From Symbiobacterium thermophilum (GTDB lineage Bacteria; Bacillota; Sulfobacillia; DYFQ01), in the NCBI GenBank assembly GCA_020725105.1, contig DYFQ01000009.1, forward strand, positions 1-64,000: a stretch of 64,000 bases of DNA, written 5' to 3'. This document shows positions 49,889 to 50,621 of the stretch, one piece after another. The notes under the pieces were generated by a model. It worked only from the letters and a program-made list of their open reading frames with translations, ran no database searches and was not told the DNA's origin. Every line of letters begins with the position of its first letter. Position 1 is the stretch's first letter. Both the position numbers and the translations under genes were made by a program.

Positions 49889-50621
49889 CGCCGAGCTTCG
49901 GTCCTGGTTGAAGGTGTACGTCATCGCCGACCCGGCCGTTGCCCGAGGGCGGGCGCTGCCGGCCCTTGTGCGGGTCGCCATCGCCGGCGGCGCGACGGCC
50001 GTCCAGTACCGTCCCAAGACGGGCCCGGTCCGGACCTGGCTCGCCGAGGCCGAGGAACTGCGGGCCGTGACCCGCGCGGCGGGCGTACCCCTGGTCGTAA
50101 ACGACCGGCTGGACCTGGCGCTGGCCGCGGAGGCCGACGGCGTCCACCTGGGCGCCGAGGACCTGCCGGTCGCGGCGGCCCGAGCCCAGCACTACCGGCA
50201 CGCCCAGCGCGCGGGCGCGCACCACGGCGAGGTCGCGGGCGTGGTAGCGGAAACCGTCCTGCTGCTTGTAGGCGCCGTCATGCTCCTCGTCGACGATGAC
50301 GAGGCCGGGGCGCGGGCGGCCGTGGCCGCCGGGGCCGACTACCTGGGGGTGGGACCCGTCTACGCCACGGGGACCAAGCCTGACGCCGGGCGGCCGGGCG
50401 GGCCCGAACTAGTCCGGCGGGTGGTCGGCGCCGTGTCCGTACCCGTGGTGGGTATCGGCGGGATCACCGCGGCCGGGGCGGGGGCCGTCGTCGCCGCCGG
50501 CGCCGCAGGCGTGGCGGTGATCTCCGCCGTGATGGCCGCCTCCGACGTGGCCGCCGCCACCCGCGAACTGGCGGCGGCCGTGCACGATGCTTTCCTGGCA
50601 GTCAAGGAGGGACAGCCATGA
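49878..50621 (+). CDS. thiE: Thiamine phosphate synthase interrupted by an inverted priA fragment
   Basis: The N-terminal part ([53 protein letters not shown]) and the C-terminal part ([39 protein letters not shown]) are good ThiE. Between them, residues about 103-141 bear no resemblance to ThiE, which has about 16 residues there including the conserved G-V-S-x-H strand. The insert is in frame by chance: read on the other strand it encodes PriA. The missing strand helps bind pyrophosphate in relatives, so activity is doubtful. The gene overlaps thiM by 11 bases and thiW as ATGA. Confidence 0.85.
50183..50315 (-). pseudogene. Fragment of priA (primosomal helicase) inside thiE, opposite strand
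   Basis: On the minus strand the DNA reads [20 protein letters not shown], then [16 protein letters not shown] and VPVVLGS. This is the PriA helicase Walker B (DEEH) region, followed by the motif that normally continues LGSATPS. It stops at the S, where thiE resumes. Bases 50301-50315 fit both genes, a possible microhomology at the join. No other part of priA is in the window. Confidence 0.85.

Follow-up and report, generated by a model that had tools for sequence, protein, structure and literature searches.

Recipient gene and its neighborhood

The thiamine phosphate synthase gene of this contig raises the question of how a piece of a helicase gene came to lie in its middle on the opposite strand, and whether the join was made in a living cell or outside it. 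The window, by which we mean the whole analyzed stretch of 64,000 nucleotides from the genome assigned to Symbiobacterium thermophilum (a draft of 73 contigs, 96.8% complete, with 1.66% contamination), carries thiE on the forward strand at positions 49878 to 50621 including the stop codon, a reading frame of 247 amino acids recognized by TIGR00693 and PF02581. The interrupted gene reaches 170.1 bits against TIGR00693 and thereby passes the family cutoff of 145.1 bits. Its PF02581 match falls into two stretches, one on each side of the priA piece, and a PF02581 search of the genome found this locus alone, which answers the earlier note's question about a second thiE with a single copy.

The operon has the order thiamine pyrophosphate (TPP) riboswitch, thiD, thiM, thiE, and thiW, with the riboswitch (RF00059, 77 bits) at 47939 to 48048 of the forward strand, upstream of the four genes. 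An OLE RNA matching RF01071 over the full length of the model (392.7 bits) is located at 51379 to 52066 on the same strand, between thiW and dxs. The open reading frame (ORF) that comes next after it (51903 to 52766) had no Pfam match; it may resemble the OLE-associated membrane protein OapA. Split family matches were also seen in thiM (48941 to 49885, forward strand) and in a prenyl diphosphate synthase gene (46444 to 47364, forward strand), where two matched stretches suggest inserted residues without implying a foreign origin.

An antisense priA segment with sharp ends

The earlier note had read the middle of thiE as a priA piece lying on the other strand, and both profile searches and DNA identity to priA bear this out. 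In the whole-genome search, the piece matched TIGR00595 with an E value of 1.8e-14, and a 57-residue antisense peptide translated from 50158 to 50330 matched NF004067 (primosomal protein N') with an E value of 2.7e-23. The segment corresponds to the helicase motif II region of PriA, from DEEH to VVLGSG. Its boundaries had been placed at 50183 and 50315, which was nearly right; by DNA identity and column agreement with the donor family, it extends on the reverse strand from 50178 to 50308, that is, over 131 bases. These ends are sharp. At the left one, the window agrees with the donor in 35 of 37 aligned rows at 50178 and in none at 50177, and at the right one, it agrees in 36 of 37 rows at 50308 and in none at 50309. 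The rows comprise the 30 most similar Rhodanobacteraceae loci (L114 to L143) together with the seven best loci among the matches listed (L033 to L039, with 73 further listed loci left aside), at least three genomes being counted twice (G061 to G063, the genomes of L033, L034, and L036).

Not one of the 131 bases is private to the window, i.e., absent from all 37 donor-family rows, a count that the choice of the most similar loci (L114 to L143) favors. Where the piece departs from individual donor loci, the differences fall mostly at third codon positions of PriA (five of six with respect to L115 and five of seven with respect to L114). The piece evolved as priA, and nothing shows any change after it left that gene. 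Such a pattern is compatible with an artifact as well as with a very recent event.

Origin of the segment

Among 233 genomes of the family that includes Rhodanobacter sp. Soil772 (L036, G063), 204 matched the piece at an E value of 1e-20 or lower. The best DNA identity within this set, to the priA genes of two Rhodanobacteraceae genomes, was 95% over 136 bases, so the identity to priA is far above chance. Among the matches listed for named genomes, the best seven loci (L033 to L039) belong to Rhodanobacter, Frateuria, Luteibacter, and a Lysobacteraceae draft, with 80 to 91% protein identity. Judging by these identities, the piece is a Rhodanobacteraceae-like priA that is foreign to the host genome. 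We presume that the donor lies in a phylum other than that of the host (Bacillota), an assumption that draws on the host's own priA, its class relatives, and the OLE RNA.

An inverted template switch within the genome, with the host's own priA as the template, was one of the two origins that the earlier note had put forward. It would account for the identity of the gene and for the orientation of the piece, and these are the only points that agree with it. The host's own priA lies on another contig (C68, TIGR00595), and in direct comparison, its agreement with the piece is limited to 77 of 129 bases and, in protein, to 22 of 43 residues, versus 95% for Rhodanobacteraceae. In addition, the genome contains a single strong TIGR00595 copy; of the four other matches, three are weak, partial, and below the cutoff, and the fourth is the piece. 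When the piece was searched against the genome as DNA, the own priA did not match at an E value of 0.001 or lower (with 40 of 218 candidates scored). The host's own gene is thus ruled out as the source, and we give such a switch practically no credence. Carriers were considered as well and rejected. None of 161 pattern matches in viral contigs encodes a relative of the piece, and a tblastn search with its 43 residues matched 4 of 72,556 plasmid records, none of them covering 80%.

The surroundings of the piece were compared with the three best donor genomes, G265, G268, and G258, in 20-kb parts (one of them with G268 and G258 only). The scan covered 80,000 of the 84,569 bases of this one contig out of 73, namely, window positions 4001 to 64000 and contig (C4) positions 64001 to 84000. 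Apart from the piece itself, matches of at least 100 bases had 65 to 76% identity, as expected of orthologs, in the 40 candidates scored per genome out of 220 to 541, a sampling that small patches may escape. All other matches above 76% among those listed were shorter than 100 bases (97% over 33 bases, 87% over 63, 84% over 72, and the rest 77 to 81% over 62 to 89). The DNA around the piece is therefore not Rhodanobacter-like, while the piece is. The 33 bases at C4 64039 to 64071, which share 97% identity with a site in the Rhodanobacteraceae genome G265, are too short to judge. Pfam searches with six nearby antisense ORFs gave no match, a weak control in that the ORF at 49839 to 50225, which contains part of the PriA piece, gave none either.

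Effect on ThiE

Relatives from the same class were used to evaluate what the piece has done to the protein (33 resolved ThiE-like sequences, with ORF L164 left out; 13 relatives were aligned). The distance between the HLGxxDLP and ADY motifs is 55 residues in the window, compared to 31 in 24 of the 33 sequences, 30 in 5, and 35 to 45 in 4. From this spacing, the gain amounts to about 24 residues, close to the approximately 23 proposed earlier, and with about 24 codons gained, the 131 bases would have replaced some 59 bases of thiE. The loss of a ThiE strand, also proposed earlier, holds: the hhGx[S/T] strand is found in all 33 class sequences and is missing in the window. The Ser/Thr of this strand is expected to bind phosphate in ThiE. 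As written, the protein is probably dead, to judge from its sequence, despite passing the family cutoff.

As the earlier note had stated, the piece keeps thiE open, and the frame runs uninterrupted from 49878 to 50621. When seven donor loci (L114 to L120) were read on both strands and in all frames, 26,238 of 38,648 windows, each 39 codons long, were open (0.68), which, multiplied by the one-third chance of the right phase, gives an open join in about 0.23 of cases. About one in four such joins would stay open anyway, and the open frame is ruled out as a sign of selection.

The insert might also be sought in the natural variation of ThiE, as a feature of a subfamily whose likeness to antisense PriA is accidental. 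Loops in this protein do vary in length, as the sequences with 35 to 45 residues illustrate. Nevertheless, these longer natural loops retain the hhGx[S/T] strand that the window lacks, and an accidental likeness is hard to reconcile with a 136-base match to priA at 95% DNA identity. No ThiE with this insert, which the earlier note had named as the observation that would speak against its reading, occurs among the 33 class sequences. We regard this explanation as having a negligible chance of being correct.

The two joins

The left join lies within 50178 to 50187, where GCCCG (50178 to 50182) suits both the thiE relatives and the donor; these five bases, coding for Ala-Arg, stand at this place in five of the seven class thiE genes compared. 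The next base completes the Arg codon CGA and is probably of donor origin, since CGA is rare in the undisputed coding sequence adjacent to it (6 of 165 Arg codons). A recipient sequence of Ala-Arg-Ala would allow an overlap of up to 10 bases. At the right join (50301 to 50308, from the donor columns and the ThiE sequences), the overlap would be up to 8 bases if the recipient read Glu-Ala-Gly-Ala-Arg (compare Glu-Ala-Gln-Ala-Arg of L018) and about 1 base under an alternative ThiE alignment. A run shared by both genes from 50301 to 50315 had been taken as a sign of a microhomology join. A short overlap at this place is indeed possible, but the sequence is donor-like only to 50308, which limits it to about 8 bases. 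With about 5 to 10 bases on the left and 1 to 8 on the right, and the recipient side reconstructed from relatives, the argument from microhomology is weaker than had been claimed.

De Bruijn assemblers use k-mers longer than such overlaps. Joins with such short overlaps are more readily explained by a chimeric molecule formed during library preparation, or by illegitimate recombination inside a cell, than by simple k-mer collision. Chimeric library reads arising through microhomology at end repair are reported in PMC8674242.

Chimera or recent recombination

We consider it likely that the priA piece in thiE is a cross-species chimera produced in the library or the assembly. The suspicion of a chimeric assembly in the earlier note would then have been the right branch of its two, and it is the likelier one. 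A co-sampled or contaminating Rhodanobacter-like bacterium, which we postulate, would have provided a short stretch of priA that was put in the place of about 59 thiE bases during library making, assembly, or gap filling; the join would have been made outside the cell, and the living organism would carry an ordinary thiE. Several observations favor this. Judged as priA sequence, the piece is the equal of its counterparts in the donor family, it has the length of a short read, and it stands alone in the part of the contig scanned. It removes the hhGx[S/T] strand from a gene that has one copy in the genome and belongs to an intact thiamine operon, a change that should rarely survive as a fixed natural event. 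The draft state of the genome, with its many contigs, points in the same direction. Misassembly is frequent: by one estimate, given in PMC10174551, misassembled contigs make up about 7% per metagenome, and in the metaMIC test data (PMC9661791), joins between genomes are the most frequent misassembly. Against the chimera, overlaps below the k-mer size mean that a simple k-mer collision cannot account for the two joins together, except if the thiE present beforehand resembled the donor more closely than the related genes indicate. Moreover, a chimeric molecule would need a second join leading back into thiE, which should make it uncommon, and reads of the true sequence should outnumber it; no second such patch was found in the 80,000 contig bases scanned, so a general fault is not indicated.

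The main competitor, to which we assign a distinctly smaller probability, is a real and very recent event in which single-stranded Rhodanobacter-like DNA annealed at short matches in thiE and replaced part of it by double illegitimate recombination, probably inactivating the gene. Short overlaps at the joins suit illegitimate recombination, the absence of any changed base is expected of a very recent event, and the frame is open with a TIGR00693 score above the cutoff. On the other hand, the damaged gene is the only thiE found, the event must have been common enough in the population to enter the assembly, and none of the 33 class ThiE-like sequences, which are relatives at the level of the class with none from the same order, carries the insert. 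Finally, according to PMC7192050, illegitimate recombination of the short-patch and homology-facilitated kinds is presumed to play no significant part in natural populations. The balance between the chimera and the natural event is our judgement and was reached without calculation.

If the piece is a chimera, as we favor, a small foreign patch in one gene of an otherwise clean draft has escaped both the genome-wide completeness and contamination figures and the gene's own family cutoff, and such a patch could be misread as a novel domain or as an evolutionary event. A genuine insertion would provide a recent case from nature of short-patch recombination with foreign DNA, equivalent to the short-patch double illegitimate recombination by which extragenomic DNA is taken up in the laboratory.

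Comparison with known systems

Like members of the ThiE family (TIGR00693), the gene passes the family cutoff and stands in an operon with thiD, thiM, thiW, and a TPP riboswitch; unlike them, it has about 24 additional codons and lacks the hhGx[S/T] strand.

Double illegitimate recombination is described for natural transformation, and Harms et al. in 2016 reportedly showed it bringing a short foreign segment into the recipient. The likeness is that a brief stretch of recipient DNA gives way to a brief foreign one, whichever its orientation, and that the ends share hardly any homology or none. Short-patch double illegitimate recombination has been documented chiefly in Acinetobacter transformed in the laboratory, whereas here a natural event between distant bacteria would be known from assembled sequence alone. 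The foreign segment and the short overlaps at the joins are observed, while the original thiE is a reconstruction and the join is possibly artificial. A natural, very recent replacement within a gene and across phyla, in which about 59 bases of thiE gave way to 131 antisense bases of priA with the frame open and the ends unblurred by mutation, is a reading that we rate as improbable, marginally more so than the insertion set out above.

With the chimeras between genomes that are known from metagenomes (PMC9661791 and PMC10174551), the locus has in common that sequence of two organisms meets at sharp joins in one contig. These papers deal chiefly with contigs whose two parts differ in origin, whereas here a piece of 131 bases is enclosed by a single gene, the same genome continues on either side, and there are two joins.
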